Source of the DNA: Sphingomonas sp. SUN019
GTDB lineage: Bacteria; Pseudomonadota; Alphaproteobacteria; Sphingomonadales; Sphingomonadaceae
NCBI RefSeq assembly: GCF_024758705.1
Contig: NZ_CP096971.1
Coordinates: 1,116,001-1,180,000 of the forward strand
Reading direction: 5' to 3'
Length of the DNA: 64,000 bases
Shown here: piece after piece, positions 30,731 to 55,932 of the stretch
Numbering within the stretch: position 1 is the first letter of the stretch
Layout: every line of letters begins with the position of its first letter
Made by a program: the position numbers and the translations under genes
The notes under the pieces: model-generated
Database searches by the model: none
Told to the model about the DNA's origin: nothing
What the model saw: the letters and a program-made list of their open reading frames with translations, nothing else

Positions 30731-32398
30731 TCAGGGAAGGCGCGAGGCGGTGCTGGCTAGCACCCAGTTCATCATGTGGCGGTTGATCGGGCCGAGCGGA
30801 CCATATTGCGAGAAAGCGCCCAACCCCTCCGGCCGGACGAGGGGCAAGGCGTGCGTCTCACCGAACGCGCGCGATACGAACGGGATGACGTTCTGCGCGG
30901 TGGTCAGGAACTCGCCCGGCACCGCGAAATTGTCGGCGGTGCCCGTCCGCAAGCCGTTCTCGGCCGCGACCGCCGCGCCCTCGGCGCGCGACGCGCCGTG
31001 CAGCCCCGCGGCGTTGAAGGTGATCGCCTCACGCCCCGACGCGTTCGCGGCGTGCGAGGCGAGTCCGCCGCCGAGCGAATGGCCGACAAAGCTGACGTCC
31101 AGCGCCGGATCGGCGCGCGCGATCGAGCGGCCGATTTCCAGCGCCTGCGCATAGTGATTCGACGGCAGGCCGACGCCCTGCTGCGCGTTTGTCACCCAGT
31201 CGCCGACGCGACCGCCCGATCCGCGGAAGGCGACCGTATAGGCCTCCGATCCAGTCGCCCCGGTCGCATAGACCTCAGCATGGAACGCCCCGCGGTCGAG
31301 CATGGTCGAATCGAGGTTCAGCCGGGCGAGTTCGCTCGCGTCGGTGACCTGGCGCGTCCCCGCAGGCAAAGCGCCACGGCCATAGACGAACCCGGCCATC
31401 TCGGCCTTCGCGTGCAGCACCTCGGCCGGAATGTCGCGCCCGGCGGGGGCGAGATCGCTCGCCCGACCGAGCAGCGGGCCGGTATCGTTCGCCGCCGTCC
31501 GCGCCACGCCCGCGACATCGTTCGCGGCAATGCGGGTCAGCCCGGGTGCGGCCTCGCGCACGACCGTCGAGGTCACGCCCCGCGCCGCGCCTTCCGCCGT
31601 CGTGCGCGCTGCACCGCCCAGCAGCGCGCACGCCGGACCGCCGCCGACCGGCACGACATAGGTCGCGACCATACCGACATCCAGGCCGATCTCCTCGGTG
31701 CGCCCCTCGGCGATCGCCTGACCGTAACGATTGGCGGTGTCGCCGACGAAGCCGCTGGTCGCATCCCATGCGCCCTTCAGGTCACCACCCAACCGGCTCG
31801 GGTCGTTCGCGACGCTGGACAGATAATTCCCCGTCACGCCCGCGCCGCTGCGCACCGCGCCGACGACGGTATCGGTCAGTTCCTGCCGCGCCTCGGCCGA
31901 TACCTGCGCCTCAGCCAGCGTCATGCCGAGTTGCCCGACCGTCCCGACCAGGCTGACGCCTTCGCGCAATACGCCGCCCGCGACGCCGACCTGAAAGCGC
32001 GTGATGCTCTCCGCGCCCGTGATCGCGCCGCGCAGCCCTTGCGAGAGGAAATCGTCGCCGGTGATCTGGCTGCGCGCGAAATCCGCGCCCTGGCCGATCG
32101 TCTCGCCGGTCCAGTTGACCGCGCTGGTGATGCCGTTGCGGCCTGCTTCGGTCGCGTCGCCGATGCCGTCGCGTACCGTGCTGGCCACCGCGCGGATGTC
32201 GCCGTTCGAGATCGCGCTGCCGAGGCTGCTGAGGAACCCTTTCGGCTCCGGCGCGGGCGCCGGAGCCGGGGCGGCGGGGGGCACCGCCGGGGGATTCCAG
32301 CCCGAAACGTAGGGCGCGACCGCGCTCGCCGGGCGCGTCGGCACCTGCGGCGGAACGGGGGGTGGCGGCGGCGCGGCCTGACGGACGGGATCGAGCAT
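30731..32398 (-). CDS. Lipase-like protein, candidate T3SS effector or toxin
   Basis: A 555-residue protein with no Sec signal. Residues 1-52 are very proline/alanine-rich. Residues 53-270 are Gly/Ala/Thr-rich helices. The C-terminal third is a class 3 lipase fold: YTVAFRGSGGRVGDWVTNAQ, then the nucleophile elbow VSFVGHSLGGG (Ser441), TADNFAVPGE (likely acid region) and a late histidine (THALPLV or NRHMMNW). It would hydrolyse lipid esters. A 17-bp inverted repeat shared with T3SS-flanking genes lies about 60 bases upstream of the ATG. The ankyrin gene follows. Confidence 0.75.
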   Translation of the reverse strand: MLDPVRQAAPPPPPVPPQVPTRPASAVAPYVSGWNPPAVPPAAPAPAPAPEPKGFLSSLGSAISNGDIRAVASTVRDGIGDATEAGRNGITSAVNWTGETIGQGADFARSQITGDDFLSQGLRGAITGAESITRFQVGVAGGVLREGVSLVGTVGQLGMTLAEAQVSAEARQELTDTVVGAVRSGAGVTGNYLSSVANDPSRLGGDLKGAWDATSGFVGDTANRYGQAIAEGRTEEIGLDVGMVATYVVPVGGGPACALLGGAARTTAEGAARGVTSTVVREAAPGLTRIAANDVAGVARTAANDTGPLLGRASDLAPAGRDIPAEVLHAKAEMAGFVYGRGALPAGTRQVTDASELARLNLDSTMLDRGAFHAEVYATGATGSEAYTVAFRGSGGRVGDWVTNAQQGVGLPSNHYAQALEIGRSIARADPALDVSFVGHSLGGGLASHAANASGREAITFNAAGLHGASRAEGAAVAAENGLRTGTADNFAVPGEFLTTAQNVIPFVSRAFGETHALPLVRPEGLGAFSQYGPLGPINRHMMNWVLASTASRLP

Positions 32399-32459: not shown

Positions 32460-32476
32460 ATAATCGGAATGACTAG
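32460..32476 (-). promoter_or_regulatory. T3SS-linked inverted repeat, site D
   Basis: ATAATCG-GAA-TGACTAG, an imperfect form of CTAATCG-N3-CGATTAG. It lies 61 bases before the lipase-like gene (leftward) and 44 bases before the KASIII-like gene (rightward), so it could act on either. Confidence 0.55.
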
Positions 32477-32520
32477 GCCGCGCTTGCAGAACGCCGCCAC
32501 CCCGGCGCATGATTGCGCGC

Positions 32521-33438
32521 ATGACAGGGTTCGCGCTCGCCGGGAGCGGCAACTATCGGCCGAAGACGGTGCGGAACGGGCGACCCATCGCGGGAGCGAA
32601 CGAAACCACGTCGGCAATGGCGACCGCCGCCGCCGAACAGGCGCTAACCGGTGCGGGCTGGCGCGCCGCGGACCTCGACGTGCTGATCGGCGCGTGCAGC
32701 GTGATGGAACAACCGATCCCCGGCACCGCCATCCTCGTCCAGCGGCGGTTGGGGATCGGTGCATCGGGCGTCGCTGCGTTCGACGTGAATGCGACCTGTC
32801 TTTCAGGGCTGCTCGCGCTCGATCTGGCCGTGACGGGAATCGCCGCGGGCAAGTGGCGTCGGGCGCTTATCGTCACCGCCGATATGCCAAGCGCGGCGGT
32901 CGATCCGGCCGATTTGGCGCTTGGCCCGATCTTCGGCGACGGTGCGGCGGCGCTGGCGGTCGAGGCGGGCGACCATCGCGTGCTTGCCAGCCGGTTCGAG
33001 AGTTACGGCGACCATGCCGATCTGTGCCGGCTGGACGCGGGCGGCACGCGCGTCGACCCGCGCGGCGACCACGACGAATTTCTCGCGGCGACGCGGTTCC
33101 GGATGGATGGCCCCGCGCTCTACCGGAAGACCGCACGGCTGTTCCCGGCATTTCTCGATCGGCTGCTTGGTGCGGCAGGCGTGCGCGCGGACGAGATCGA
33201 CCTGATCGTCCCGCATCAGGCGAGCGCGCCCGCGATCGATCACCTGTCGCACGTCCTGGGCGGCGACCGGGACCGGATCGTCGACATCTTCGGGGAGCAC
33301 GGCAATCAGGTCGCGACCAGCCTGCCGCACGCGCTCCACGTCGCCGCGACCACCGGACGGCTGACGCCGGGGTCGACCGTGCTGCTGGTCGGCAGTGCGG
33401 CGGGGATCACGCTCGGCGGCATATTGGTGCGCTGGTGA
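32521..33438 (+). CDS. 3-oxoacyl-ACP synthase III-like protein
   Basis: A 305-residue thiolase-fold condensing enzyme. The catalytic triad is intact: Cys93 in FDVNATCLSGL, His232 in VPHQAS and Asn262 in EHGNQVATS. Such enzymes join an acyl-CoA or acyl-ACP to a second acyl unit, or transfer acyl groups. The location at the head of a six-gene operon without other fatty acid genes argues for a specialised pathway rather than housekeeping FabH. The ATG at 32521 is chosen; an ATG four codons upstream is possible. The stop overlaps the next gene's GTG. Confidence 0.82.
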   Translation: MTGFALAGSGNYRPKTVRNGRPIAGANETTSAMATAAAEQALTGAGWRAADLDVLIGACSVMEQPIPGTAILVQRRLGIGASGVAAFDVNATCLSGLLALDLAVTGIAAGKWRRALIVTADMPSAAVDPADLALGPIFGDGAAALAVEAGDHRVLASRFESYGDHADLCRLDAGGTRVDPRGDHDEFLAATRFRMDGPALYRKTARLFPAFLDRLLGAAGVRADEIDLIVPHQASAPAIDHLSHVLGGDRDRIVDIFGEHGNQVATSLPHALHVAATTGRLTPGSTVLLVGSAAGITLGGILVRW

Positions 33439-34385
33439 CGCGGCTGGCGCTGGTGACGGGCGCGACCGGCGGGCTGGGTCGAACGCTCGTTCCGACGCTC
33501 GTCGCGGCGGGATGGCAGGTGCGTGCGACCGGACGGCGTACGGGCGACGGCATCATCCCGCTCGATCTGACGCAGCCGATCCCGGCGACACTGGCGGATG
33601 GAGTAGATGTTGTGTTCCACCTCGCGGCCCTCTCATCGCCGTGGGGCCGCCCGCGCGATTTCGCGGCGATCAACATGGATGCCACCGCCCGGCTGCTTGA
33701 AGCGGCGGCGCGGGCGGGATGCCGCCGTCTCGTCCACGTCTCGACGCCGTCGATCTATGCCGAGGCACGCGAACGGCTCGATCTGACCGAACGATCGCCG
33801 CCCGCGGCGCGCTTTGCCAGCGCTTATGCCAGCACGAAATGGCAGGGCGAGCGGCTTGTGCTTGCTGCCGACAGCCCGGCGATGCGGACGATCGTATTGC
33901 GGCCGCGCGCGATCGTCGGGCCGCATGACGCGGTGCTGCTCCCACGGCTGATGCGCGCGATCCGACAGGGGCGCGTGCCGTTGCCCGGCGGCGGGGCGGC
34001 GCTGGTCGAGCTGACCGACGCGCGCGATATAGCGACGGCGCTGATCGCTGCCGCCGATGCAGAGGTCGGGGGGGCGGCGTTCAACATCTCGGGCGGACAA
34101 CCGCGCAGCGTGCGCTGGATCGTGACGCGCATCACCGCGCGCCTTGGCCTGACGCCACGGATCGCCAACCTGCCGCGCCCGCTGGCGATGGCCGGTGCGG
34201 GCGCGCTGGAGGCGATCGGGCGCATCACGAGCCGCGAGCCATTGATTACGCGTTATGGCGTGATGACGCTCGGCTGGTCGCAGACCTTCGATCTCTCCGC
34301 CGCGCGCGACCGACTTGGCTGGACGCCACGCATTTCGCCCGAGGATGCGATCGACCACGCGCTGGAGGCGATATGCGCCGCGTAA
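33435..34385 (+). CDS. NAD-dependent epimerase/dehydratase family protein
   Basis: A 316-residue extended SDR. It has the nucleotide loop VTGATGGLGRTL (residues 7-18), FHLAALSSP, VHVSTPSIYA and the catalytic YASTK. This fold covers sugar epimerases, 3-beta-hydroxysteroid and 2-alkyl-3-ketoacid reductases (OleD). Placed directly after a condensing enzyme, a role in reducing its beta-keto product is plausible. GTG 33435 overlaps the preceding stop by four bases. Confidence 0.8.
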   Translation: MTRLALVTGATGGLGRTLVPTLVAAGWQVRATGRRTGDGIIPLDLTQPIPATLADGVDVVFHLAALSSPWGRPRDFAAINMDATARLLEAAARAGCRRLVHVSTPSIYAEARERLDLTERSPPAARFASAYASTKWQGERLVLAADSPAMRTIVLRPRAIVGPHDAVLLPRLMRAIRQGRVPLPGGGAALVELTDARDIATALIAAADAEVGGAAFNISGGQPRSVRWIVTRITARLGLTPRIANLPRPLAMAGAGALEAIGRITSREPLITRYGVMTLGWSQTFDLSAARDRLGWTPRISPEDAIDHALEAICAA

Positions 34386-35203
34386 CGTTGCGCGGCTTTC
34401 GCGTCGGCTTCTGCCGCCACCCCCAGCGCATGGCGATCCGCGACGGGCGCTGGCGGCCGGTCGAATTTCCGGCGCTCGCGTTCCTGCTGGTTCACCCAGA
34501 GGAAGGGCCAATCGTCTTCGACACCGGTTACGATCCCGCCTTCTTCACCGCGACCGAGCCGTTTCCGGAGCGCCTGTACCGCTGGACGACCCCGCCGACG
34601 CTTGGGCCACGGGAGGCCTTGGCCGATCAATTGGCGGCGGCCGGAGTTGCGCCGGGCGACGTGCGCCACCTGATCCTGTCCCATTTTCACGCCGATCACA
34701 TGGCGGGCACGCACCGCTTTTCGAACGCCGCGATCCACTGTGCGCGCGCCGGATATGATGCGATGTGCGCGGGGAGCCGACTGGGGTCGGTGCGCAAGGG
34801 GATGCTGCGCGCGTTGGCCCCGCTCGATTTCCTGACGCGTGCGCGGTGGTTCGAGGATGCGCCGCGGGTGCCGCTGCCCGCCGATCTTGCGCCGTTCGTT
34901 GAAGGGGCCGATCTGCTGGGCGACGGATCGTTCCTCGCGCTGCCCCTGCCCGGCCATTGCCCCGGTCATTGGGGGCTGGCGCTGCGCGAGGATGCGGGGC
35001 TGCACATGCTGGTCGCCGACGCGGCGTGGTCGAGCGATGCAATCCGCCGCGACATGCCGCCGCCGCGGCTGACGATGGCGCTGCTGGGTGACCCCGCCGC
35101 AACCCGCGCGACGCTGCACGACCTGCATCGACTGCGTGTGCGCAATCCCGACATCCGGCTGACACCGTCGCATTGTCCGGAATGCGCGAGCGAGTGGGCG
35201 TGA
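34373..35203 (+). CDS. MBL-fold metallo-hydrolase
   Basis: A 276-residue metallo-beta-lactamase-fold protein. The binuclear site is plain: FDTGYDP, SHFHADHMAG (HxHxDH), LPGHCPGHWGL, VADAAW and a late histidine in TPSHCPE. It most resembles lactonase/thioesterase-like MBL proteins. In the operon it could hydrolyse a thioester or lactone intermediate. It overlaps the upstream gene by 13 bases and its stop overlaps the next GTG. Confidence 0.8.
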   Translation: MRRVTLRGFRVGFCRHPQRMAIRDGRWRPVEFPALAFLLVHPEEGPIVFDTGYDPAFFTATEPFPERLYRWTTPPTLGPREALADQLAAAGVAPGDVRHLILSHFHADHMAGTHRFSNAAIHCARAGYDAMCAGSRLGSVRKGMLRALAPLDFLTRARWFEDAPRVPLPADLAPFVEGADLLGDGSFLALPLPGHCPGHWGLALREDAGLHMLVADAAWSSDAIRRDMPPPRLTMALLGDPAATRATLHDLHRLRVRNPDIRLTPSHCPECASEWA

Positions 35204-36321
35204 CCATCTTGGTGACCGGCGCGCGTGCGCCAGTGGCGCTCGATATCGCGCGGTCGTTTCGCGCGGCAGGGCATGACGTGCACCTGGCGGATTCGGTCGC
35301 GGCTTATGCGGCGTGCTGGTCGCGGTCGGGGTTTCCGGTGCATCGCCTGCCGCCGCCGCGGCACCAGTTTGGGGCGTTTCGGGAGGAATTGTCGGCGCTG
35401 GTCGACAGGCTGGGCGCGACGCTGGTCGTGCCGACGTGCGAGGAGGTGTTCTACGTCGTCGCCGCGGCGGACGGGGCGTATCCGGTGTTCGCGCCGCCGC
35501 TCGCGACGTTGCGCGCGCTTCATTCCAAAAGCGCGTTCGTCGGGCTGGCGCGCGCGGCCGGGGTGCGCGTGCCGGACACGCAGTTGCTGACCGATCCTGC
35601 GCAACTTGCCGGGCTGGACCTTGGGCGGCTGGTGCTGAAACCAGAATTTTCGCGCTTTGCCGCCGCGACGCTGATCCGTCCGCGTGACGTGCGGCGTGTA
35701 AAACCGTCGCCCGACCATCGCTGGGTCGCGCAGGAGTACGTCGCAGGCGAGGAGGTGTGCCTGTGGTCGGCGGTCGTCTCGGGTGTCGTGACGACGGCGG
35801 TCGTCTATCGCCCGACGCTGCGCCATGGCCGGTCGGCGGCCTATGCGTTCGAGGCGATCGATTGCCCTGCGGCGGTCGAGGTCGCGCGCAGGATCGCCGC
35901 GGCGACCGGCATGACCGGGCATCTGTCGTTCGACTTGATCCTGACCGCGAACGGCGAGGCGGTCCCGATCGAGTGCAACCCGCGCGCGGTGAGCGGGGTG
36001 CATCTCTACGATGGCGAAACGCTGGCGCGCGCGATCATCGGCGAACCTCAGCCCGCGCCACCACTCGGCACGCGCCGCCACCTGTCGCCCGCCATGGCGC
36101 TGCTCGGCGCGCCGACGTCGCTTGTCACCGGGCGGATCGCGCAGTTCGCGCGCACGTGGCGCGAAGGGACCGACGCGATCGGCCGACCCGGCGATCGCTG
36201 GCCCGCAATTGGAGCGATCGTCGACGCCGCGCGCTTCGCGGCGCTCGGCCTAACCCGTCACCGCAGCCCGACGCGCCAGACGACCGACGACATCGAATGG
36301 AACGGCGAGCCGATTGGATGA
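35200..36321 (+). CDS. ATP-grasp family ligase
   Basis: A 373-residue ATP-grasp protein. The N-terminal pre-ATP-grasp domain begins ILVTGARAPVALDIAR. The ATP-binding part has RLVLKPEFSRFAAATLIRP, WVAQEYVAGEEVCLWS and the metal-binding GHLSFDLILTANGEAVPIECNPRA spread over the C-terminal half. Such enzymes activate a carboxylate as acyl phosphate and join it to an amine or thiol. Start GTG 35200 is within the previous gene's stop. The substrate is not known. Confidence 0.78.
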   Translation: MTILVTGARAPVALDIARSFRAAGHDVHLADSVAAYAACWSRSGFPVHRLPPPRHQFGAFREELSALVDRLGATLVVPTCEEVFYVVAAADGAYPVFAPPLATLRALHSKSAFVGLARAAGVRVPDTQLLTDPAQLAGLDLGRLVLKPEFSRFAAATLIRPRDVRRVKPSPDHRWVAQEYVAGEEVCLWSAVVSGVVTTAVVYRPTLRHGRSAAYAFEAIDCPAAVEVARRIAAATGMTGHLSFDLILTANGEAVPIECNPRAVSGVHLYDGETLARAIIGEPQPAPPLGTRRHLSPAMALLGAPTSLVTGRIAQFARTWREGTDAIGRPGDRWPAIGAIVDAARFAALGLTRHRSPTRQTTDDIEWNGEPIG

Positions 36322-37430
36322 TCTTCGACCCCGCCGACCCGAACGCCATCTGGCCCCCGATTCCGCCCGCCGAACGATCATATATCGCGGCGGTTGCGCA
36401 CGGCGGTGCGCGGGCGATGGCGTCGAACGTGCGGACGCGGTGGCTCGCGCTCGCCAGCGACGGCCGCGTGTTGCCGGTCACGGTCAACGACGGTGCGGTC
36501 GGCGACAGCTACGTCTGCCTGCCGCACAGCGCGTATATCCTCTACGGCCTGCGCGAGATGGAGCTGGTCGGGGTACGGGGCGGCGCATTGCTGTCGCCGC
36601 TGATCCGCGCCGCGGGCAGGCTGCTGCTGGCGGCAGGGATCAACCGCATCGTCCATATCGACAATTGGCTGCTATCGACCAACCTGCACGGCGACTGGGA
36701 CGGCGCGGACCTGCCCAGGGTCCGCGCCGCGCTGACCGAACGCTTTCCGCATCATATCCTCGCGATCCGATCGGTCGACGATTGGTCGAGCCCCGCGCTC
36801 GCCGCATCAGCACGCGACGACGATTGGGTGATGATCCCGTCGCGTCAGATCTGGGTGACGGACAACCTCGCGCGCGACTGGAAATCGCGCAACGATTACG
36901 GCAACGACCGCCGCCTGATCGCACGCTCGGGGCTCAGTCTCGAACCCGCGGCAGCCGCCGACGCAGGCCGCATCGCCGAACTCTACCACCAGCTCTACGT
37001 CGGCAAATACAGCGCGCTGAACCCGGTCTTTACGCCGCGCTTTGTTGCCGAAACGCTGGTGAGCGGCTTGATCGATTACCGCGTCGCCCGCGCGCCGGAC
37101 GGGCAAATCATGGCGGTCGCGGGGTTGCTCGCACGCGGCGACGTCGTGACGCCGCCCGTCGTCGGGTACGACATCAGCGCACCGCGATCGGCGGGACTGT
37201 ACCGTATCGCCTCGTGGCTGTTCGGGCAGGCCGCGATGGAGCGCGGCTTGCGATTGCACGGATCGGCCGGGGCAGCGGAGTTCAAACGCCTGCGCGGCGC
37301 GCACGGCGTGATCGAGTATTGGGCGATGTACGTCGCGCACCTTTCCCCGCACCGTCGCGCGGCGATCCGCGCGCTTGCCGCGTTGCTCGAACGCTATGCC
37401 GTACCGATGATGCGGCGGCGCGGGCTATGA
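36318..37430 (+). CDS. GNAT-like protein, unknown substrate
   Basis: A 370-residue cytosolic protein. The C-terminal half (ARSGLSLEPAAAADAGRIAE, a helix with YHQLYVGKYS, then a core strand region with AVAGLLARGDVV and PPVVGYDISAPRSAGLYRI) resembles a GNAT acyltransferase fold, but the acetyl-CoA loop is not obvious. The N-terminal half is not recognised. Being tightly coupled on both sides (ATGA at 36318), it probably works in the same pathway as the ATP-grasp and Rieske proteins. Confidence 0.55.
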   Translation: MIFDPADPNAIWPPIPPAERSYIAAVAHGGARAMASNVRTRWLALASDGRVLPVTVNDGAVGDSYVCLPHSAYILYGLREMELVGVRGGALLSPLIRAAGRLLLAAGINRIVHIDNWLLSTNLHGDWDGADLPRVRAALTERFPHHILAIRSVDDWSSPALAASARDDDWVMIPSRQIWVTDNLARDWKSRNDYGNDRRLIARSGLSLEPAAAADAGRIAELYHQLYVGKYSALNPVFTPRFVAETLVSGLIDYRVARAPDGQIMAVAGLLARGDVVTPPVVGYDISAPRSAGLYRIASWLFGQAAMERGLRLHGSAGAAEFKRLRGAHGVIEYWAMYVAHLSPHRRAAIRALAALLERYAVPMMRRRGL

Positions 37431-38404
37431 GCGGCTGGCCGGTCGCCATCGCCAACGGCTGGTATCCGCTCGCGCGCCTCAGCGATCTCGGGCGAAAGCC
37501 GGTCGCGCGCCGCTTGCTCGGCCAGCCGCTGGTGGTGTTCGCGGGTAAGCGCGATCCGGTCGTTCTGCACGACCGCTGCCCGCACCGCGGCATGCCTTTG
37601 AGTGAAGGACGCGTCGCGAATGGCCGTATCATCTGTCCGTATCACGGCTGGGCGTTCGGCGATGGCGGCGTGTGCCGCGCGGTGCCTGGATCGCGCGACG
37701 TTACGGCGGTCTCGGCCGCTGCCCTGCCGGTGCGCATCGCCGCCGGAATGGTCTGGACGACGCTGGGTGACGGCGCTTTCCCCGTGCTACCGGCGGCGAT
37801 GGAGGACGAAGCGCTCGATCGCTTTTGGTGGCCGGTCGCGGCGTCGCGAGCGCGTGTGCTGGATGCGCTGGAGAATCACCTCGACCCCGCGCATCCGCAT
37901 CACGTCCACCCGTGGATCGTGCGCGCGCCCGACAAGCGCCAGCTGGTCGCGGTGACGGTGGAGGTCACGAACGACGGCGCGAGCACCACGTATGTCGAGG
38001 AAACACGCGCCACCGGCCTGATCCCGCGATTGTTCGAGGGGCATCGCACCACCAGCATCGGGCGACTTTACCCACCCACGATCGGCGAGGTCGCGTTTAC
38101 CGGCCCCGCCGGGCTGCGCCTTTCGATCGCGGTGGTCTTCGTGCCAGAGGATGCGGCGACGACGCGACCGTGGGCGCATTTCGCCACGCCGCGCGGGCGG
38201 CTGCCCGCATCGCTAAAGCGCATACTCCTGAAGGCGTTCCACCGCCCGATCCTGGCGCAGGATCGCCGCATCCTGTCGCGGCAAGCGGATCGCAAGGGGG
38301 CGTATGCGATCGGCCCACTCGATTTCCTCGGTCCGGCGATCTGGGGGTTCGCGAATGGCAATCCGCCACCGCCGTCGCGCTACGAGACGAGCGTATTGCT
38401 CTGA
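37427..38404 (+). CDS. Rieske non-haem iron oxygenase
   Basis: A 325-residue oxygenase. The N-terminal Rieske [2Fe-2S] site is CPHRG (Cys51, His53) plus CPYHGW (Cys70, His73). The mononuclear iron site follows as D153-x2-H156-x4-H161 in HLDPAHPHHVH. It is shorter than ring-hydroxylating dioxygenase alpha subunits and resembles monooxygenase/demethylase types. No partner reductase or ferredoxin is encoded nearby. The last gene of the operon, it overlaps the convergent adenylate-forming gene by 25 bases. Confidence 0.85.
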   Translation: MSGWPVAIANGWYPLARLSDLGRKPVARRLLGQPLVVFAGKRDPVVLHDRCPHRGMPLSEGRVANGRIICPYHGWAFGDGGVCRAVPGSRDVTAVSAAALPVRIAAGMVWTTLGDGAFPVLPAAMEDEALDRFWWPVAASRARVLDALENHLDPAHPHHVHPWIVRAPDKRQLVAVTVEVTNDGASTTYVEETRATGLIPRLFEGHRTTSIGRLYPPTIGEVAFTGPAGLRLSIAVVFVPEDAATTRPWAHFATPRGRLPASLKRILLKAFHRPILAQDRRILSRQADRKGAYAIGPLDFLGPAIWGFANGNPPPPSRYETSVLL

Positions 38405-39666
38405 TCGGGCGACCATTCCCGACGTACGCGACGCAATTTCGCATCGAATGGCACGTCGATCCCGCGGTCGATCGTTACCGTGAGCGGCGTAAGCGCCATC
38501 CGCGCCGCCAGTCGCGCGAACGCCGTCTGCACCGCGAGATCGTCGCCTTGCCCGACTAGCAATCGCACCGTCATCGCCGACGCGCCGGTCTGGACGATGC
38601 GGAAATCGGCGATCGCACGGTCGGCGTCGATCAGCGTGTTGCGCAATACGTCGGGCGTCACCGGATGCGGCGCGCCGTCCGTCCCCGCCAGCCAGAATAG
38701 GTCGTCGCGCCGCCCCTCGATCCGTTCGACCGCACGAAACGCCGATCCGCACGCGCAACGACGATCGCTCAGCGCCAGCAGGTCGTTCATCCGATACCGC
38801 GCCATCGCCTGCGCACGCCGCGTGAAGTCGGTGACGACCGGCTGGACCAGATCGCTGCCCGGCGCGCTCGGCTCCCAGCCGAAATGAACCACATCCTCCG
38901 CCAGATGCAGCATGCCATGTGCGCACGACACGCCGAACAGCCCCTCGGTCGCCATGTAGATCTGCCGTACACGCACCCCGGTCGCGGCGAGGATCGCGGC
39001 TTCGTCGAGCGGGTCGAGCACCTCCGCTGCGCTAAAGATCGTCGTCGCAGTCAACGCGCCCTGCTCGGCGAGCAGCCGCAACACCTTCGGCGGCGCGACG
39101 ATCGTGTCGGGCGCGAACGCCGCAAGCCTGTCAGCCCACGCATCCACCCCCTCCGCCAGATCGAACAGCCTCAGCGTCACCCGGCTCCCGCCCTCCGCCG
39201 ATCCGTACAGCCGCGAAAATCCCGGCAGCGCGAGCGCCACGCAGTGCCGCCGCCACAGGGCATCGGGCAGCGCCTTCGCCAGCAACGTGCCCAGCCACAC
39301 GAACCGCTCCGCCTCGCTGACAACGAAATAGCCGCGGTTGCCGCTCGTCCCCGTGCTGTGGCCGATCGCATGGCCGTCGACCACCGTCTCGCCTCGACCC
39401 AACGCGTCGCGCACGCGGTCGAGCGAAATGCCCGCCGCGTTCATCGCGGCGAAGTTCGCCAGCAGGATGTTCTTGTCGACGACCGGCCACGTAGCGAAAG
39501 CGTCCGGATCGATATCGCGGTAGAATGGGATCGCTTCCCGCAAATGCTGCCCCAGCACCACCAGACGCCGCGCCTGATAGCGTTCGACCGCTGCGCGCGA
39601 CGTAAGCGTCCGCGTCCGCCACCGCGCCAACGCATAGGCTCGCGCCGCCACCATCATCCCGGTCAT
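38380..39666 (-). CDS. F390-synthetase/phenylacetate-CoA-ligase-like enzyme
   Basis: A 428-residue adenylate-forming enzyme. Recognisable are HSTGTSGNRGYFVVSE (the ATP-binding P-loop-like motif), a middle block with IYMATEGLFGVSC, and RYRMNDLLAL followed by a DRRCACGSAF metal-like motif. These match the PaaK/CapK group that activates carboxylic acids as adenylates and often transfers them to a thiol or amine. It faces the KASIII-Rieske operon and could activate its starter acid. Start ATG 39666 has GAGGCGG before it; a TTG three codons upstream is also possible. Confidence 0.75.
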   Translation of the reverse strand: MTGMMVAARAYALARWRTRTLTSRAAVERYQARRLVVLGQHLREAIPFYRDIDPDAFATWPVVDKNILLANFAAMNAAGISLDRVRDALGRGETVVDGHAIGHSTGTSGNRGYFVVSEAERFVWLGTLLAKALPDALWRRHCVALALPGFSRLYGSAEGGSRVTLRLFDLAEGVDAWADRLAAFAPDTIVAPPKVLRLLAEQGALTATTIFSAAEVLDPLDEAAILAATGVRVRQIYMATEGLFGVSCAHGMLHLAEDVVHFGWEPSAPGSDLVQPVVTDFTRRAQAMARYRMNDLLALSDRRCACGSAFRAVERIEGRRDDLFWLAGTDGAPHPVTPDVLRNTLIDADRAIADFRIVQTGASAMTVRLLVGQGDDLAVQTAFARLAARMALTPLTVTIDRGIDVPFDAKLRRVRREWSPDQSNTLVS

Positions 39667-39725
39667 CCGCCTCAAACCGGGAACTCCCCGCCGCGCCAGT
39701 CGGTTGACCGTAACGACAGAACGCT

Positions 39726-40130
39726 ATGGTGGCGGAGATGATGACGGGATGGACGGCGATGGCGATAGCAGCGGCGGCGACGGCGCCGGTCGACAAGGAA
39801 ACACGCAGCGCGATCCTCGATCGTGCGCGCGAACCCGTCGCCGCGGCGTTGGGAAAGCCCGTGCTGTTCCGGGTCAGGAAGCTGGGCTTGTCGGGCGACT
39901 GGGCGTTCCTTCATGCCGACATGGAGGAGCGTGACGGCGTTCCGATCGATTATACCGGCACGCCGCGCGCGGACGATGCGGCGCACGGTGTCGTTTCGCG
40001 GACATACGCCGCACTGCTTCATCGTAGCGGGACCGAATGGCGCGTCGTCGCGCATGCGATCGGGCCGACCGATGTGGCGTGGGCGGACTGGTCGACGCGC
40101 TATGGCGCGCCACCTGCGATTTTCGGCTGA
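39726..40130 (+). CDS. Exported small protein, unknown
   Basis: A 134-residue frame. The N terminus (MTGWTAMAIAAAATAPVDKE) looks like a signal peptide with an AxA-type cleavage site, so the mature protein of about 115 residues is likely periplasmic. VVSRTYAALLHRSGTEWRVVAHAIGPTDVAWADW in the C-terminal half is conserved-looking but I do not recognise a family. It begins about 60 bases from the adenylate-forming gene, divergently. Confidence 0.55.
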   Translation: MVAEMMTGWTAMAIAAAATAPVDKETRSAILDRAREPVAAALGKPVLFRVRKLGLSGDWAFLHADMEERDGVPIDYTGTPRADDAAHGVVSRTYAALLHRSGTEWRVVAHAIGPTDVAWADWSTRYGAPPAIFG

Positions 40131-40188
40131 CGCCGCGGGTCGTTGATTCTCGGCTGACGCCTCACGGCATCCATTTTCAGCTAGCCGA

Positions 40189-40539
40189 TCAGTAGGTCCC
40201 ATGCGCGTTCGACGGATACCACCAGGAAAAACTGGTCGACAGATCATAGGTGCTGAAGACGACATTGCCGCGATTGCGCTCATATCCCATCGCGGGCTTG
40301 CCGTTCAGTTTTCCCGCCCACCAGCCGGTCTGCTTCTTGCCGACGAAGGTCAACTGCCGACCGCCGATCGCGAATACCATTCGGTGATAGCCACCGCGGC
40401 CGACCGTATCGGTCAGGCGGCAGGTGCGATCGGGGGCGTAGTTCAGCGAACAGCGCACGGTATCGGTGGCGGGGGTGCGGTTTTGCGCCACCGCGGGAGC
40501 GGCGATCGCAAGCTGGACGATCAGGAACACGCGTTTCAT
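40189..40539 (-). CDS. Exported small protein, unknown
   Basis: A 116-residue protein beginning at MKRVFLIVQLAIAAPAVAQ, a clear Sec signal peptide with AVAQ cleavage. The mature part has two cysteines and an aromatic-rich tail (SFSWWYPSNAHGTY). The signal closely resembles that of the 41969-42820 product (IATAVIAAPAVAQ), and both flank the LysM hydrolase gene, so they may act together in the envelope. No family recognised. Confidence 0.55.
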   Translation of the reverse strand: MKRVFLIVQLAIAAPAVAQNRTPATDTVRCSLNYAPDRTCRLTDTVGRGGYHRMVFAIGGRQLTFVGKKQTGWWAGKLNGKPAMGYERNRGNVVFSTYDLSTSFSWWYPSNAHGTY

Positions 40540-40574
40540 GATGGTGGAAACGCCGTTCCCGATGAAGCCGTTCC

Positions 40575-41897
40575 TCACCGCGCCATATCGGCGGCGCGCT
40601 GACCGCGACGTGCGGCCTCGCCCGCAGTGTCGGCGGGGCGTTCGTACAGCCGCGTGACGATCTCAGCCGCCTCGCGCGCGGTCGATGCGCCGCGCAACGC
40701 ATTTCCCGCCCCACGCTCGCTGTGCGTCAGCTCGTGCTGGATGAAGCGCAACTGCTCGTTGAACGTCGATTGGTGGATGTCCTTGCCCGCCCAAGCCGCG
40801 AAGTCGCGCTGGCGCGGGTTTTCCCACTGCGCCAGGCCGAAGCCCGGCCCGCCGCCGTGTTGACGGATGCCCGCATCCATCCCGCTTTCGGCGTCGAGAT
40901 TGGCGACGATGCCGATCGCCTGCGCGTGGCTCCACCCCTGCCCTTCGAAGAAGCGCGTCGCCTGGTCGATCCTGTCCTGCCGCGATCCGGTTCCCGTGGC
41001 CGCGGGGCCGTCTGCGCCGGTCGCGCCGTCGGTTTGCGTCCGTTCGCTGGCTGGCGCACGCAGGATCACGCCCCCCTTGCTCAGCGCCCAGGACAGGTCG
41101 CCGGGGCTGATCCGCTGCGTACCGTCCGCATTGACGTTGTTCGATCCGATCATCTGGCCGGGGCCGGAAACGATCTCGGTATGCGACACACCGCCTCCCT
41201 GGATGATGACGACGTCGCCCGGCTTTGCTTCGCTCGCCGGGACCGGCGTCCAGCCGCGTGACCGCAGCGTCGAGTTCAGCGTCGCGACCGAGTCAGTATG
41301 CAGGTTGCCGGGCAATTGCCCCGCCTCGGTCAGCACCGCCGACACGAAATTCGCGCAGCAGACGTTGGAGGGGACGTTCGCGTTCATCGGCAGATTGTCG
41401 CGCGTATTGCCCTTCAGCGACGACGCGTTCTGTCCGAGATATTTAGCGGCGATCTCCGCAACATTGCCCGTGCCGCCACCGGGCGTCGCGGCGCCGGTCC
41501 CGCCGACCTCGCCGCTGCTCCCGGTTCCGCCGCTGCGCCCGGGAATCGAAAGCGTCTGGCCGGGGAGGATCAGGTTCGGGTTTGACAGGTTGTTGGCCTG
41601 CGCGATCGACTGCCAGCTGACCCCGTGCTGCGCGCCGATCGCGCTCAGCGTATCGCCGGATTTGACGGTGTAGCTCCCACCGCCAGCCGCGCCGCCCGAG
41701 GGGATCGACACATGCTGGCCCGGTCGGATCAGGTCTGGGTGCAGGATCTGCGGGTTGGCGTTGATCAGCGACTGCAGGGTGACGCCGCTACGCTGCGCGA
41801 TTGCCGACAGCGTATCGCCCGCCTTCACGATATAGCCGCTCGAAGAACCGCCGCCCGAAGGCTCTGCGCTGCGCTGGACTGCGTTGACGGTCATCAT
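40575..41897 (-). CDS. LysM/NlpC-like/lysozyme peptidoglycan hydrolase, no signal peptide
   Basis: A 440-residue multi-domain cell-wall hydrolase. Two LysM modules (about residues 22-65 and 75-118, each with a GDTLSAI motif) are followed by a cysteine-peptidase-like domain with NVCCANFVSAVL and GDVVIIQGGGVSHTEIV (about 145-270), then a phage-tail-lysozyme-like domain (about 310-420; VANLDAESGMDAG, GGGPGFGLAQWE). It lacks a Sec signal despite targeting peptidoglycan. An inverted-repeat operator lies 58 bases upstream. It is a candidate T3SS substrate that opens a path or attacks another cell; both are inference. Confidence 0.75.
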   Translation of the reverse strand: MMTVNAVQRSAEPSGGGSSSGYIVKAGDTLSAIAQRSGVTLQSLINANPQILHPDLIRPGQHVSIPSGGAAGGGSYTVKSGDTLSAIGAQHGVSWQSIAQANNLSNPNLILPGQTLSIPGRSGGTGSSGEVGGTGAATPGGGTGNVAEIAAKYLGQNASSLKGNTRDNLPMNANVPSNVCCANFVSAVLTEAGQLPGNLHTDSVATLNSTLRSRGWTPVPASEAKPGDVVIIQGGGVSHTEIVSGPGQMIGSNNVNADGTQRISPGDLSWALSKGGVILRAPASERTQTDGATGADGPAATGTGSRQDRIDQATRFFEGQGWSHAQAIGIVANLDAESGMDAGIRQHGGGPGFGLAQWENPRQRDFAAWAGKDIHQSTFNEQLRFIQHELTHSERGAGNALRGASTAREAAEIVTRLYERPADTAGEAARRGQRAADMAR

Positions 41898-41955
41898 GCC
41901 GCTCCCGATTTCTGTCGTGTCGGAAGCAATTTACCGCGAGCCGAAAGCGCCGTCG

Positions 41956-41972
41956 CTAATCGAAACGTTTAG
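41956..41972 (-). promoter_or_regulatory. T3SS-linked inverted repeat, site A
   Basis: CTAATCG-AAA-CGTTTAG, one mismatch between the arms. It lies 58 bases upstream of the LysM hydrolase ATG and overlaps the stop codon of the gene behind it. Confidence 0.6.
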
Positions 41973-42820
41973 AGGGGCTCGCGCCGGTCGACGCGGTAGG
42001 TCATCTCGGCGCCGAACGCGCGTACCGCGGCACGCAGGTTCACGTCGGACAGCGGATCGCGCGCGATCGTGTCGATCAGCGCGAAGGCGGCGGGACCGTG
42101 ACGCTTGCTAGCGAACAGCGGGGTCGCCGCGGCCGGAACCACTTCTTCCGCGCCGGGCCAGCGCGCGAGGCAGGCGAGGCCGGTGACCGTCGCGCGCAGT
42201 TCGTCGGTATCGATCTCGGTGCGTTTCAGCGTCGAAATCTTGCGATATTCGATCGGGTAATTCTGTTCGAACTCCGCCACCACCGCGGATTGCGTCGCCG
42301 GATCGGCCGAGGTCGGCGTCCGGCACGTCGAAGCCGAGCGCGCGCCGTAGCCCGCCGCCCCGTCGCTGCTCGCCACCCCGGCGGCTGGCGCGGCATTTTC
42401 CAGCCGCATCGCGCCACCGTCATAGCGGAACCGCACCAACGGACCGCCCGCGGCGGTGGCCGGCATCGCAACGGCGAAACCGGTGCGGCCAGCCTCCGCG
42501 CGCGCGCCCTTGCTGCACGTCCCGAACGGCTCGGTCGCGGCGGGAGCGCCATCCGCCTCGCGCGTCACGACGACATAGCGCGCCGGGCAATCCCCACCCG
42601 CATCCCCGCGCACCAGATGGAAGGTGCGCGGACCGCTGCGGTACGTGCCGACGACGCTGACCCGGTCGACCAATTGCGCACCAAACGGCCGCGACACGAC
42701 CGTTCCACCGACCTGCAACGCCTGTTCGCTGCCCGATGTGATGACCGCGATCCCGCCGCTCTGCGCGACCGCGGGTGCTGCGATCACGGCAGTGGCGATG
42801 GACAGTGCGCGAAGCAACAT
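41969..42820 (-). CDS. Exported protein of unknown function, T3SS-flanking
   Basis: A 283-residue protein beginning MLLRALSIATAVIAAPAVAQ, a Sec signal peptide. The mature part has several cysteines (GGDCPARY, PFGTCSKG, ASTCRTP, LACLARW) and a C-terminal helical segment. I recognise no domain. It lies 76 bases after the 42897-43406 gene on the same strand and may share its transcript. The long open frame upstream to 43054 is a shadow. Confidence 0.6.
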   Translation of the reverse strand: MLLRALSIATAVIAAPAVAQSGGIAVITSGSEQALQVGGTVVSRPFGAQLVDRVSVVGTYRSGPRTFHLVRGDAGGDCPARYVVVTREADGAPAATEPFGTCSKGARAEAGRTGFAVAMPATAAGGPLVRFRYDGGAMRLENAAPAAGVASSDGAAGYGARSASTCRTPTSADPATQSAVVAEFEQNYPIEYRKISTLKRTEIDTDELRATVTGLACLARWPGAEEVVPAAATPLFASKRHGPAAFALIDTIARDPLSDVNLRAAVRAFGAEMTYRVDRREPL

Positions 42821-42896
42821 GGCGACCCTTCCCGTTGATAAGGCGCCCTTTACGCCCTGGACGTCACCACGCACGAACCGCACCGCGGTTCCCGCG

Positions 42897-43406
42897 TCAA
42901 CCGCCATTAGCGCGAGAAAGCGTGGCGGTCGCAGTTTCGAGCCGCGCGACGACCTCATCGACGCCGCCACCCGCTTCACCGGCCGCGGCCGCGTCAAGCG
43001 CATCGCCGAGCCCGGCCACCTGTCGCGCCCCATCGGGCCCCGACAGCCCGGCAACCTGAATCACCGCGGCGCGCGTGAAATCCTCCATTGCGCGGCGTAA
43101 TTCGCCTTCCTGCGTCGGGGTCGCGCCAAACTGGCCTGCGATCCCGCGCGCCATGTCGTTCAGGCCGTACACGTCGCCGCGCTGCGCCAGCACCGATGCG
43201 TCGGGCGAAAACCCGCCAGTCGCACCAGCCCGCTCGGCCCACGCCGCCGATCCGGCGCTATCGCCGCCAATCGCGCCGACCCAGGCGAGTGCGCGGTGCC
43301 CGATCTCGCCGATCGCCTGCGTGGCGGCGGTGCGGGCAACCCCGCCGCTCCCCGCGTCGAGCGCGGAGAGCGGCGGGGCGGACGAAAGGCGATCGATTCC
43401 GTTCAT
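42897..43406 (-). CDS. Unknown protein with operator, candidate T3SS substrate
   Basis: A 169-residue, Ala/Gly-rich, cysteine-free protein without a Sec signal. The N-terminal 60 residues are low-complexity (SAPPLSALDAGSGGVARTAA); the rest is predicted helical with acidic patches (RRAMEDFTRAAV, DALDAAAAGEAGGG). No family recognised. The operator-like repeat 43475-43491 lies about 68 bases upstream, as for the lipase and LysM proteins. Absence of Cys and a flexible N terminus fit a T3SS-exported protein, but could equally mean a chaperone or regulator. Confidence 0.5.
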   Translation of the reverse strand: MNGIDRLSSAPPLSALDAGSGGVARTAATQAIGEIGHRALAWVGAIGGDSAGSAAWAERAGATGGFSPDASVLAQRGDVYGLNDMARGIAGQFGATPTQEGELRRAMEDFTRAAVIQVAGLSGPDGARQVAGLGDALDAAAAGEAGGGVDEVVARLETATATLSRANGG

Positions 43407-43474
43407 GGTCTTTCCTGTCGGTCGCGATGCTGCGACTCTCGAAAGTCTTTTCGCGCAACCTTTGCGGGCACGCC

Positions 43475-43491
43475 ATAATCGAAGCGATTAG
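43475..43491 (-). promoter_or_regulatory. T3SS-linked inverted repeat, site B
   Basis: ATAATCG-AAG-CGATTAG, with six of seven arm positions matching. It lies about 68 bases before the start of the leftward gene 42897-43406. Confidence 0.6.
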
Positions 43492-43494
43492 CCG

Positions 43495-43719
43495 TCATTC
43501 TCTCGCCGCCAGCCGATCGAGCGGACCGGGCTGCATCAGCAATGTTTCCAGCGCACCTGGGCGATCCAATCGGCGAGCATCGTCCGAGCAAGTGTTGTGC
43601 AGCGTATCGGACAACGTCCGGCTCGCGTCATCCACAACCTGTTGCGTGCGTTCGCCGCGCGCCATCAACGATGTCCCGATCGCGATATCGCCTGCACGCA
43701 CGCCGATATTGATGCTCAT
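43495..43719 (-). CDS. Small T3SS-flanking protein, unknown
   Basis: A 74-residue protein from ATG 43719, which has GGAG eight bases ahead; the frame opens four codons further without a ribosome site. The sequence MSINIGVRAGDIAIGTSLMA is followed by a polar helical region and a Leu/Pro tail. It has no signal peptide. Size and position suggest a T3SS accessory such as a chaperone or small exported component, but no family is recognised. Operator sites C and C' lie 45-90 bases upstream. Confidence 0.5.
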   Translation of the reverse strand: MSINIGVRAGDIAIGTSLMARGERTQQVVDDASRTLSDTLHNTCSDDARRLDRPGALETLLMQPGPLDRLAARE

Positions 43720-43768
43720 AACCAACTCCATTCAAAGGAACTCGTACGCGCGCGGAACGCGGACGGCA

Positions 43769-43785
43769 CTAGTCGAAGCGATTAG
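43769..43785 (-). promoter_or_regulatory. T3SS-linked inverted repeat, site C
   Basis: CTAGTCG-AAG-CGATTAG, between divergent genes 43495-43719 and 43921-44556. It lies 49 bases from the former. Confidence 0.6.
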
Positions 43786-43790
43786 GCGGT

Positions 43791-43807
43791 CTAGTCGGAA
43801 CGCTGAG
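43791..43807. promoter_or_regulatory. T3SS-linked inverted repeat, weaker site C'
   Basis: CTAGTCG-GAA-CGCTGAG, with centre 22 bases (two helical turns) from the centre of site C. It may serve the rightward harpin-like gene 113 bases away. Confidence 0.4.
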
Positions 43808-43920
43808 CGCGCAGGTCCGAGGAACACGCCATAAGGACCATCGACGGCGCGACGTGCCGCCGCCCACCAAGCCTCCAGCGATGAGAGCGATGAGGCTGCA
43901 GATTTCGAATGGAGACACCC

Positions 43921-44556
43921 ATGTTCGGTATCAACGGTTTCAATCCCGCTTCGCTGTTGGCCACCGCGGCGCTCGGCCCCGCAGGCGGCATGATGACCCA
44001 GCTGGCTGCCCAAGTGTTTTCGCGCATCGGTCAACAGATGCTCCAGCAAATGGGACAGCAGCTTGGTCTGCCGCAGTCGGTGATCGATATGGCGCAAACG
44101 TCGTTTGCCGGCTCGACGGGCGATATCGGCGGCTTCGCCAACAACCTGGGCCAGTCGGTCAATGCGTCGATTGAGGAGGCGGGCCTCGCCTCCGGAGCGT
44201 CGCCGCGCGACATCGCCGATCAACAGCGAGCGACGCAGGATTTCATCCGCGACACGGTCGAACGGATGGGCCAGAGCGACGAGTTCAAGGAAGCCAAGCA
44301 AGGCAAGGGCAAGGGCGCGGGCGGCGCAGGCGGCGCGCAGGGCTGGCTGATGGCCATGGCCAAGGTGCTCGGCCAGCAACTGGATCAGCTGGGCGACGAA
44401 ATGACCGATATGGCCAGCCGCATCACCAAGGATACTCCGGGCCTGTCGGCGGAGTTCGGCGTGGTTTCGCAGCAGTTCGGCATGCTGATGAACGCGACCA
44501 GCAACGCGATCAAGACGGTCGGCGAGTCGATGGGACGGATGGCGTCGAAGCAGTAA
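43921..44556 (+). CDS. Harpin/translocator-like secreted protein candidate
   Basis: A 211-residue cysteine-free, Gln/Met/Gly-rich protein. Residues 8-50 form amphipathic helices rich in Q and M (GGMMTQLAAQVFSRIGQQML), followed by a Gly/Lys linker (KQGKGKGAGGAGGAQG) and a long C-terminal helix bundle with LGQQLDQLGDEMTDMASRIT and AIKTVGESMGRMASKQ. Harpins and T3SS translocators share such composition. A good ribosome site (ATGGAGAC) precedes ATG 43921 and a strong terminator follows, so it is a single-gene unit, as expected of an abundant exported protein. The identity is inference. Confidence 0.55.
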   Translation: MFGINGFNPASLLATAALGPAGGMMTQLAAQVFSRIGQQMLQQMGQQLGLPQSVIDMAQTSFAGSTGDIGGFANNLGQSVNASIEEAGLASGASPRDIADQQRATQDFIRDTVERMGQSDEFKEAKQGKGKGAGGAGGAQGWLMAMAKVLGQQLDQLGDEMTDMASRITKDTPGLSAEFGVVSQQFGMLMNATSNAIKTVGESMGRMASKQ

Positions 44557-44967: not shown

Positions 44968-45315
44968 TCAGTCCGCCGGATAGAACAATAGTCCGGCCAG
45001 CGCGGCCAGTTCGCGCATTCCGTCCAATTCCAGCTTGCGCGTGACGTTCGACAGGTGGACGCGCACGGTGTTCTCGGAAATCAGCAGCAACGTCGCGATG
45101 TCGGGGTTGGAGCGGCCCCATCCCAGAAAGCGGATGCAGGTCAGTTCCATTGGCGTCAGCTTGAGCAACGTCTCGCGGTGGCGTTTCGGGACGCGCGCCG
45201 CCTCCACCATATGCTCGCCGATCGCCACCGGTGCGGCGGATCCGGGCATCGCATCAGCCTTGCGCAGCAACTCGGCGATCGCGGCGAGGCGTTCGTCCTC
45301 GATCGCCTCGCTCAT
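44968..45315 (-). CDS. LuxR-type (GerE HTH) regulator in the T3SS operon
   Basis: A 115-residue protein. The C-terminal half is a LuxR/GerE DNA-binding domain: LLKLTPMELTCIRFLGWGRSNPDIATLL, then SENTVRVHLSNVTRKLELDGM. No receiver or autoinducer domain is present; the N-terminal 45 residues are acidic and helical. Its ATG overlaps the stop of sctT (ATGA), making it the last gene of the leftward T3SS operon. GerE-type proteins bind inverted repeats as dimers, so it is the natural candidate for the CTAATCG-N3-CGATTAG sites found next to T3SS-flanking genes. Confidence 0.82.
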   Translation of the reverse strand: MSEAIEDERLAAIAELLRKADAMPGSAAPVAIGEHMVEAARVPKRHRETLLKLTPMELTCIRFLGWGRSNPDIATLLLISENTVRVHLSNVTRKLELDGMRELAALAGLLFYPAD

Positions 45316-46088
45316 CCGCCCAGGCCCTTGAGGATCGCGTTGATCACCGCTGGGCGGCTGGCGATGTCGCGGATGATCGCGGTGATGTAGCTGCCTAGCA
45401 ACAGGAGGAGCAGGAACGTCGCTGCGAACGCCTTGATCGACAACGACAGGGTGAAGACGTTCAATTGCTGGGCGAATCTGTTCATCAGTCCCAGTCCGGC
45501 GTCGATCAGGAACAGCACCGTCAGCACGGGTGCGGCGAAAAGTGTCGCCAGCACCATCATTCGCCCGAATTCGCCCTCCACGATGCCAAGCCCGCGCGGA
45601 TCGAGCGCGGGCATCGGCGCGGCGACCGGCCACAAGGCGTAGCTTTCCATGATGACGCGCAGCAGCAGCGACAGCCCGCCCATCGACACGAACACCACCC
45701 CCGCCAGCCGTCCGAGGAACGCGCCGTTCAGCGAGGTCTGATGACCGGACAGCGGATCGACGACCTGCGCCAGCGTCGCGCCGACCTTCGTATCGATGAT
45801 CTGCCCCGCCGCCTCCAGCGCCCACAGCACCGATCCAAAGAAGAAACCGATCAGCAGCCCGACGAACACTTCCTTGATCAGGATCGTCGCCCACTGCCCC
45901 GGCCCCAGCATCGAAATATCGAGCGGCGGCTGCATCGCCAGGCTGACGACGCCAAGCGATACGAAGATCGAATTGCGCACCAATGCGGGGACAGTTTCGC
46001 TGGAGAACATCGGCAGCAGGAAAAACGTCGCCGCGACCCGCGCGGTCGCGACGCCGAGCAGCAGGACTTGATCGGCCCAGCCGTTCAC
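45312..46088 (-). CDS. sctT: T3SS export apparatus protein SctT
   Basis: A 258-residue multi-pass inner-membrane protein of the FliR/SctT family that closes the export gate with SctR and SctS. About six hydrophobic segments are visible, with the family-typical GVVSLAMQPPLDI, FVGLLIGFFFGSVLWA and DTKVGATLAQVVDPLSGHQTSL blocks. It is 7 bases downstream of sctS and ends in the ATGA overlap with the luxR gene. Confidence 0.9.
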   Translation of the reverse strand: MNGWADQVLLLGVATARVAATFFLLPMFSSETVPALVRNSIFVSLGVVSLAMQPPLDISMLGPGQWATILIKEVFVGLLIGFFFGSVLWALEAAGQIIDTKVGATLAQVVDPLSGHQTSLNGAFLGRLAGVVFVSMGGLSLLLRVIMESYALWPVAAPMPALDPRGLGIVEGEFGRMMVLATLFAAPVLTVLFLIDAGLGLMNRFAQQLNVFTLSLSIKAFAATFLLLLLLGSYITAIIRDIASRPAVINAILKGLGG

Positions 46089-46095
46089 GACCTTG

Positions 46096-46365: not shown

Positions 46366-46380
46366 GCCGCCGCCCCCGCG

Positions 46381-47067: not shown

Positions 47068-47072
47068 CGGCC

Positions 47073-50758: not shown

Positions 50759-50768
50759 GAGCCCGGGC

Positions 50769-52757: not shown

Positions 52758-52769
52758 CGGGGATAACAG

Positions 52770-55894: not shown

Positions 55895-55932
55895 GCGTTA
55901 CACACTGACCTGAAGCAAGAAGGAGCAAGTAG

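Follow-up and report, generated by a model that had tools for sequence, protein, structure and literature searches.

A 17-bp inverted repeat before needle and effector-like genes as the putative operator of a type III secretion regulon in Sphingomonas sp. SUN019 and its relatives

The window, by which we mean the whole stretch of 64,000 nucleotides of Sphingomonas sp. SUN019 analyzed here (NZ_CP096971.1, positions 1,116,001 to 1,180,000), carries a locus for a type III secretion system (T3SS) and five copies of a 17-bp inverted repeat resembling CTAATCG-N3-CGATTAG. The original prediction had placed four good copies before leftward genes and had ascribed the repeat to a dimeric regulator, for which a LuxR-type protein encoded in the T3SS operon was named. 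Upon re-reading of the window, the coordinates and sequences of all five sites proved to be correct, and the sites were confirmed as real. The sites and the genes next to them are as follows.

32460..32476, minus strand: putative operator, 61 bp ahead of the ATG of the lipase-like gene; CTAGTCATTCCGATTAT in gene orientation
41956..41972, minus strand: putative operator, 58 bp ahead of the ATG of the LysM gene; CTAAACGTTTCGATTAG in gene orientation
43475..43491, minus strand: putative operator before the p42897 gene; CTAATCGCTTCGATTAT in gene orientation; 68 bp to the ATG
43769..43785, no strand assigned: distal unit of a putative tandem operator between the p43495 gene (left) and the needle gene (right); CTAATCGCTTCGACTAG in gene orientation; 49 bp to the ATG of p43495
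43791..43807, no strand assigned: proximal unit of the same tandem operator; needle-side half CGCTGAG; CTCAGCGTTCCGACTAG in gene orientation
30731..32398, minus strand: lipase-like protein of 555 amino acids (aa) in which no signal peptide was seen; sub-threshold Lipase_3 match (E 0.0046)
40575..41897, minus strand: protein of 440 aa combining LysM with a phage-lysozyme-like part; no signal peptide seen
42897..43406, minus strand: p42897, 169 aa, without a match in Pfam or NCBIfam
43495..43719, minus strand: p43495, 74 aa, no Pfam match
43921..44556, plus strand: needle-like protein of 211 aa with an SctF-like domain at the C-terminus (sub-threshold in both Pfam, E 2.2e-5, and NCBIfam, E 3.9e-4)

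Against the symmetric consensus, the sites at 32460, 41956, 43475, 43769, and 43791 showed three, one, one, one, and three mismatches, respectively, which bears out the one to three changes claimed for the good sites. The half TARTCGRA was likewise found on the plus strand of all five, and the four distances to the ATG fell within the 49–68 bases given earlier. The fifth site (43791) had been called weaker; it is not noise, being the second unit of the tandem operator, in which the distal and proximal units are spaced by 22 bp. CGCTGAG-like needle-side halves recur at the same place in relatives.

At up to three mismatches, the symmetric consensus gave seven matches in the window versus 1.88 expected, a number reached by none of 100 shuffles; both additional matches (31718 and 46256) fall within coding regions. 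Genome-wide, however, the consensus barely exceeded its reversed control, with nine versus seven matches at up to two mismatches and 99 versus 72 at up to three. As a shared signal it thus stands above chance in the window and not appreciably so in its own genome, and these near-background counts are what would favor a chance resemblance in a GC-rich genome. In contrast to the symmetric consensus alone, the full motif in gene orientation, CTAANCGYTYCGATTAG, which the site at 41956 matches exactly, was selective. Its three central bases are mostly YTY and not free; the fuller profile discriminates where the symmetric consensus does not.

A profile (R1) was built from 48 distinct sites of other genomes, after removal of CGAATCACTTAGATTAG (loci L093 and L094) and L152:631. 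Because these 48 sites were themselves chosen by means of the five-site matrix, the test is out of sample as regards the sequences but not as regards which motif was sought. In the window, R1 ranked the five sites first (E 0.0027, 0.003, 0.034, 0.055, and 0.073), with 43475 at the top and 32460 in fourth place (11.0 bits), followed by the opposite strand of two sites and then by unrelated places with E of 2.6 and worse. In the 3.8-Mb genome at E ≤ 10, the matches listed were 43475, again the highest of them, 43769, and 43791 of the window together with a distant site at 735042; 41956, 32460, and a further distant site at 596838 were not among these, and misses are likely because 150 of the 1086 first-look candidates were scored.

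The five-site matrix itself was applied to 38 related T3SS loci (602 kb), which had been selected for carrying the regulator gene described below, and gave 93 matches in 31 of them, whereas 200 column-shuffled matrices gave 0.64 matches on average and 17 at most. From 80 additional loci, 18 new relatives and 31 controls were used, the other 31 being set aside as already analyzed. Among the 18 named relatives (302 kb), 14 carried a total of 51 matches, including loci of Novosphingobium, Sphingobium, Glacieibacterium, and Croceibacterium, and two more (L212 and L217) a tandem pair only. The 31 control loci (536 kb), mostly of Enterobacteriaceae with Chloroflexi included and unmatched in base composition, yielded a single match. 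Tandem pairs, counted on either strand, numbered 34 and occurred in 31 of the 38 loci, with none in 536 kb and none in 71 kb of controls. The excess over shuffled matrices, the conservation of the sites across five genera, and the recurrent gene families behind them leave chance resemblance a negligible probability.

The motif also accompanied the regulator gene from genome to genome. A relative of the regulator at E ≤ 1e-15 was found in 39 of 250 Sphingomonas genomes, its own included, and in three genomes of other genera (249 drawn from the family). CTAANCGYTYCGATTAG with at most one mismatch, hereafter the strict motif, occurred in 25 of the 39 Sphingomonas genomes with the regulator and in 6 of the 211 without it (Fisher P 4.6e-19); as the pattern had been drawn from the own genome, this genome was excluded as a check, leaving 24 of 38 (P 2.4e-18). 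Exact matches were present in 14/39 versus 0/211, and the reversed control pattern showed no association (14/39 versus 67/211, P 0.71). Hundreds of matches at random positions had been named beforehand as the outcome that would speak against a T3SS regulon, and the strict motif numbered 0 to 6 per genome. Co-occurrence thus ties the box to the system, and cannot separate the regulator from the target promoters because both lie in one locus.

To describe what lies behind the sites, open reading frames (ORFs) beginning 20–145 bp behind matches were grouped into families, a procedure that also catches antisense and chance ORFs. The needle gene was found behind sites in 28 loci, the LysM gene in 17 (own included), the lipase-like gene in 10, p42897 in 8, p43495 in 5, and a 145-aa family in 5, besides others. 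p42897 relatives adjoin the T3SS in many loci, and in the relative L049 the site lies 64 bp before the ortholog of the lipase-like gene. In seven genomes a distant site was found 81–82 bp before a DUF1521-type gene (one member scanned, Pfam 1.4e-55); DUF1521/MIIA is the autocleavage domain of T3SS-secreted NopE proteins (PMC6506597). Within the own genome, 54 bp separate the site at 735042 from a gene with a GTG start, whose 315-aa product has no Pfam or NCBIfam match and contains HTHP-x10-SxxD, read by eye as a JAMM motif; the site at 596838 lies 55 bp before the gene of a 225-aa protein bearing HESAHAVD (HExxH), with a sub-threshold match to ATLF (E 1.4e-4). Neither protein has an evident signal peptide.

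Among regulator-bearing genomes, 19 of the 22 strict matches off the T3SS locus had a gene of a recurring or effector-like family 53–104 bp away, in an analyst's tally in which the G261 case and the signal peptides were judged by eye and hydropathy was computed for own-genome proteins only. The exceptions were G124:C3 and the own site 1244502, for which no gene was found, and G027:739128, which precedes a gene for a small Sec-type protein. The T3SS-regulon reading thus came through the test proposed with the original prediction. As to the window itself, the proteins behind the four good sites had been said to lack a Sec signal, and a crude hydropathy test found their N-termini without any strongly hydrophobic stretch: their best 12-mers scored 0.53 to 1.19, whereas three Sec-type proteins encoded in the window reached 1.64 to 2.16. 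By the same crude test, seven own-genome proteins lack an evident signal peptide. The box therefore stands before needle and effector-like genes both inside and outside the locus, and we consider the sites very likely to be the operators of a T3SS-substrate regulon.

ORF inspection covered part of the listed places with up to three mismatches outside the window. Those at 612838, 169407, and 1272740 were set aside as probable chance sites, as were 477366 (before a gene for a transporter of the major facilitator superfamily type), 275130 (before that of a sensor-kinase-like protein, by eye), and 1244502. The genes L055:6911-7588 and L056:5041-5988 correspond to the two T3SS-distant effector-like genes of the own genome and were found via the box alone. 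In the needle-like protein, the SctF-like part is confined to the C-terminus of the 211 residues, and relatives of similar length exist in most related loci. Next to its gene, 44655-44963 (plus strand) encodes a small protein with a signal-peptide-like start, and similar-looking small proteins with a site of their own are encoded in relatives (L052:11536-11811 and L157:1824-2081). Downstream of the lipase-like gene, 29918-30667 (minus strand) encodes an ankyrin-repeat protein; both proteins were matched in L053, L101, L103-L105, and L118.

Promoter-like elements were read near the sites of the window in the following three cases.

43741..43746, minus strand: -10-like TACGAG at +23 to +28 relative to the site, in the p43495 promoter, read from the sequence
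43830..43835, plus strand: -10-like CATAAG at +23 to +28 relative to the proximal unit, in the needle promoter
41928..41933, minus strand: -10-like TAAATT of the LysM promoter

An A at +24 past the site, within a weak TA-type -10 element, was found in 24 of the 32 non-redundant forward promoters (of 43), with a binomial P of 4e-9 against 0.25 for what was the best of the 43 columns examined. This would place the operator centre near -43 from the inferred start. For the needle promoters, counted as 36 among 39 loci (L108 and L118 had no needle match, and L100 no site there), the A at +24 was present in 23 of 36 and in 13 of 21 non-redundant ones. A second unit 21–23 bp upstream was flagged in 29 of the 36, and in the remaining 7 a second unit with an off-pattern letter was visible by eye. 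The needle-side half is often CG[CGT][GTC]GAG.

These dimensions bear on the alternative that the invariant half serves as a -35 element for an extracytoplasmic function (ECF) sigma factor. ECF promoters have an orientation-bound -35 element about 16–17 bp from the -10 element. The short, narrow distance to the genes and the -10-like A at a fixed distance would suit such a promoter. Yet both halves are conserved, and the sites occur in both orientations at similar distances (53–64 bp forward and 54–58 bp reverse for the lipase genes, and reverse in 7/7 DUF1521 genes). Tandem units recur 21–23 bp apart, and 22 bp separate the site end from the -10-like element, so that the near half is too far away to be a -35 element. 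Orientation, spacing, and tandem units thus led us to discard the ECF alternative, which appears highly improbable. The other proposal made at the outset, a dimeric LuxR-type regulator, was supported by the conservation of both halves, the variable orientation, the tandem units of about 22 bp, and a joint change of half-site base 5 and recognition helix described below. The same geometry bears on the sign of regulation. A site this close to the -10 element could be occupied by a repressor, the dimer then blocking the promoter and silencing T3SS substrate genes; however, a unit that stands where a -35 region would be, in constant phase with the -10 element, fits an activator better, and tandem dimers reaching the -35 region match the geometry of BvgA (PMC7250471). 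We accordingly regard repression as quite improbable, and activation by the regulator appears fairly probable.

The candidate regulator and the secretion genes are arranged as follows.

44968..45315, minus strand: candidate regulator, 115 aa, with a GerE/LuxR-type helix-turn-helix (HTH) domain (PF00196 E 4.7e-12, above cut-off); its ATG overlaps the end of sctT
45312..49549, minus strand: genes of the export apparatus, sctU-fliO-sctQ-sctR-sctS-sctT, followed by the regulator gene at the end; the names sctU, sctR, and sctS were assigned by eye
50715..59912, plus strand: injectisome genes sctV, sctC, sctD, sctJ, and sctN, interspersed with small unassigned genes

The ATG at 45315 leaves about 50 residues ahead of the HTH domain. 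In Pfam, GerE was accompanied only by a sub-threshold match to Sigma70_r4_2; neither a receiver nor a ligand or autoinducer-binding domain was detected, and at 115 aa in total the protein does not belong to the LuxR quorum-sensing regulators. As it has no N-terminal receiver, it may work like, and is not a member of, the NarL/FixJ response regulators such as SsrB and BvgA. It aligned with chains of VpsT, NarL, VraR, and EsrB. Within the same operon, 48074-48397 (minus strand) encodes a FliO-family protein (TIGR03500 E 2.2e-15, above cut-off), of which a relative exists in 38/38 related loci; flagellins are encoded elsewhere in the genome (2.55 Mb). FliO homologs have been reported in some virulence-associated T3SS (PMC12403147).

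To relate regulator and box, the recognition helix was compared with the half-sites. The regulator residue aligned with V189 of NarL, which we take to be a DNA-contact residue, was V in 28 loci (the window and 27 related ones), T in 10, and S in 1. Half-site base 5, left free in the pattern used (to which L100 and L108 had no match), was A in 44 of 62 half-sites of the T/S group, compared with 1 of 136 in the V group. On a tree of SctT, SctS, and SctR this joint change is one event, and it thus supports, but does not prove, recognition by the 115-aa protein. In the T-type branch, a second operator dialect with CTAAACG or CTCCACG halves was seen near the needle gene or the regulator (L054, L109-L117, L212, L215, and L217).

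The operators might alternatively be bound by a different DNA-binding protein, such as a NarL/FixJ response regulator with its gene at some other place in the genome, with the small GerE protein otherwise employed or in mixed dimers. This would accommodate the absence of a sensory domain from the 115-aa protein, as well as the fact that its solved homologs are mostly response regulators or LuxR-type proteins (VpsT, CviR, VraR, EsrB, and NarL), and co-occurrence cannot tell the regulator from the rest of the locus. On the other hand, the 115-aa protein was the only HTH protein among the T3SS-locus proteins scanned, its gene adjoins sctT in 38/38 loci, although these had been chosen for carrying it, and its recognition helix changes together with the half-site. 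Another binder is thus judged unlikely, and linkage, co-occurrence, and the one helix/half-site change make the 44968-45315 product quite probably the binder.

Several observations weigh against activation of a substrate regulon by the 115-aa protein, among them the selection of the +24 column as the best of those examined, the single origin of the helix/half-site change, and the near-background counts of the symmetric consensus given above. Co-occurrence could reflect the presence of the T3SS locus rather than of the regulator. No strict match was found in 14 of the 39 regulator-bearing genomes, of which 6 are of the T/S type and the other 8 have matrix matches in the locus. Conversely, 6 of the 211 regulator-less genomes carry a strict match; three of these matches fall within an ORF, no recurring family stands behind any of the six, and one is located 43 bp before the gene of a protein with a signal-like start. 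Two of the 18 further loci (L208 and L209) had neither matrix matches nor tandem pairs, no strong site precedes sctU or sctV within the window, and no gene lies behind the own site 1244502. In some relatives (L052 and L157), sites precede genes for small Sec-type proteins, and the crude hydropathy test places the needle-like protein at 1.41, near the 1.64 of SctC.

Comparison with described systems places the arrangement among known regulatory designs. SsrB of Salmonella SPI-2 recognizes inverted heptamers of 7-4-7 layout (18 bp) before T3SS promoters, with half-sites that can be swapped front-to-back (PMC2837388). The present system resembles the SsrB regulon in its LuxR/GerE-type HTH and in degenerate inverted heptamers before T3SS promoters, and differs in a spacer of 3 instead of 4, in a regulator without the receiver domain of a NarL/FixJ-type response regulator, and in the lack of strong sites before sctU or sctV in this window. 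BvgA of Bordetella binds as head-to-head dimers with 22 bp between centres, the nearest abutting the -35 region (PMC7250471). The 7-3-7 units, the 21–23-bp repeat, and the -10-like A at +24 would together amount to a BvgA-like operator geometry, with inverted heptads, phasing of about 22 bp, and a promoter-proximal unit beside the -35 region; BvgA is, however, a full response regulator, and the present promoters usually have two units at the needle gene and a single one at most other genes. In rhizobia, a tts box lies 43 bp before nopC (PMC4646503). As with the tts box and TtsI, a short box is found near the start of T3SS secreted-protein genes in Alphaproteobacteria, and NopE-type DUF1521 proteins occur here too. 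TtsI is another kind of regulator, and the tts box differs in sequence from the present sites. The box-marked effector regulons of the MxiE box (Shigella) and the PIP box (Xanthomonas) are similar in principle, with AraC-type regulators and a different box anatomy.

Taken together, the sites are probably operators of a T3SS-substrate regulon activated by a 115-aa receiver-less LuxR/GerE-type protein. Each 17-bp unit, a 7-3-7 inverted repeat, would be bound by one dimer, which, occupying the -35 region immediately ahead of the -10 element (centre near -43), would activate transcription. At the needle gene, usually two dimers would sit 21–23 bp apart, or about two helical turns. The activator would most likely be the 115-aa product of the last gene of the export-apparatus operon, so that assembly of the apparatus would increase the amount of activator, which in turn would raise expression of the needle and effector-like genes, whose products are presumed to be secreted.

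The titles and abstract openings returned by a literature search named no T3SS regulator or effector set for sphingomonads, and for S. sediminicola the part of the report considered here describes a plasmid-borne Rhc-I-like T3SS and mentions no regulator box (PMC9861922). From the arrangement seen here, we lean toward the view that sphingomonads share an undescribed injectisome regulon, in which a GerE-type activator of 115 aa and tandem 7-3-7 operators couple the apparatus to needle and effectors, and of which one branch uses a second dialect. Sphingomonas and its relatives are common on plants. The system would offer a simple single-domain model in which a receiver-less LuxR-type protein couples apparatus and substrates. 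If this is true, the box would serve as a genome-wide effector finder, marking LysM-lysozyme, lipase-like, NopE-type, JAMM-motif, and HExxH proteins as effector candidates, and a validated box would give candidates for injected proteins straight from sequence, even far from the T3SS locus.

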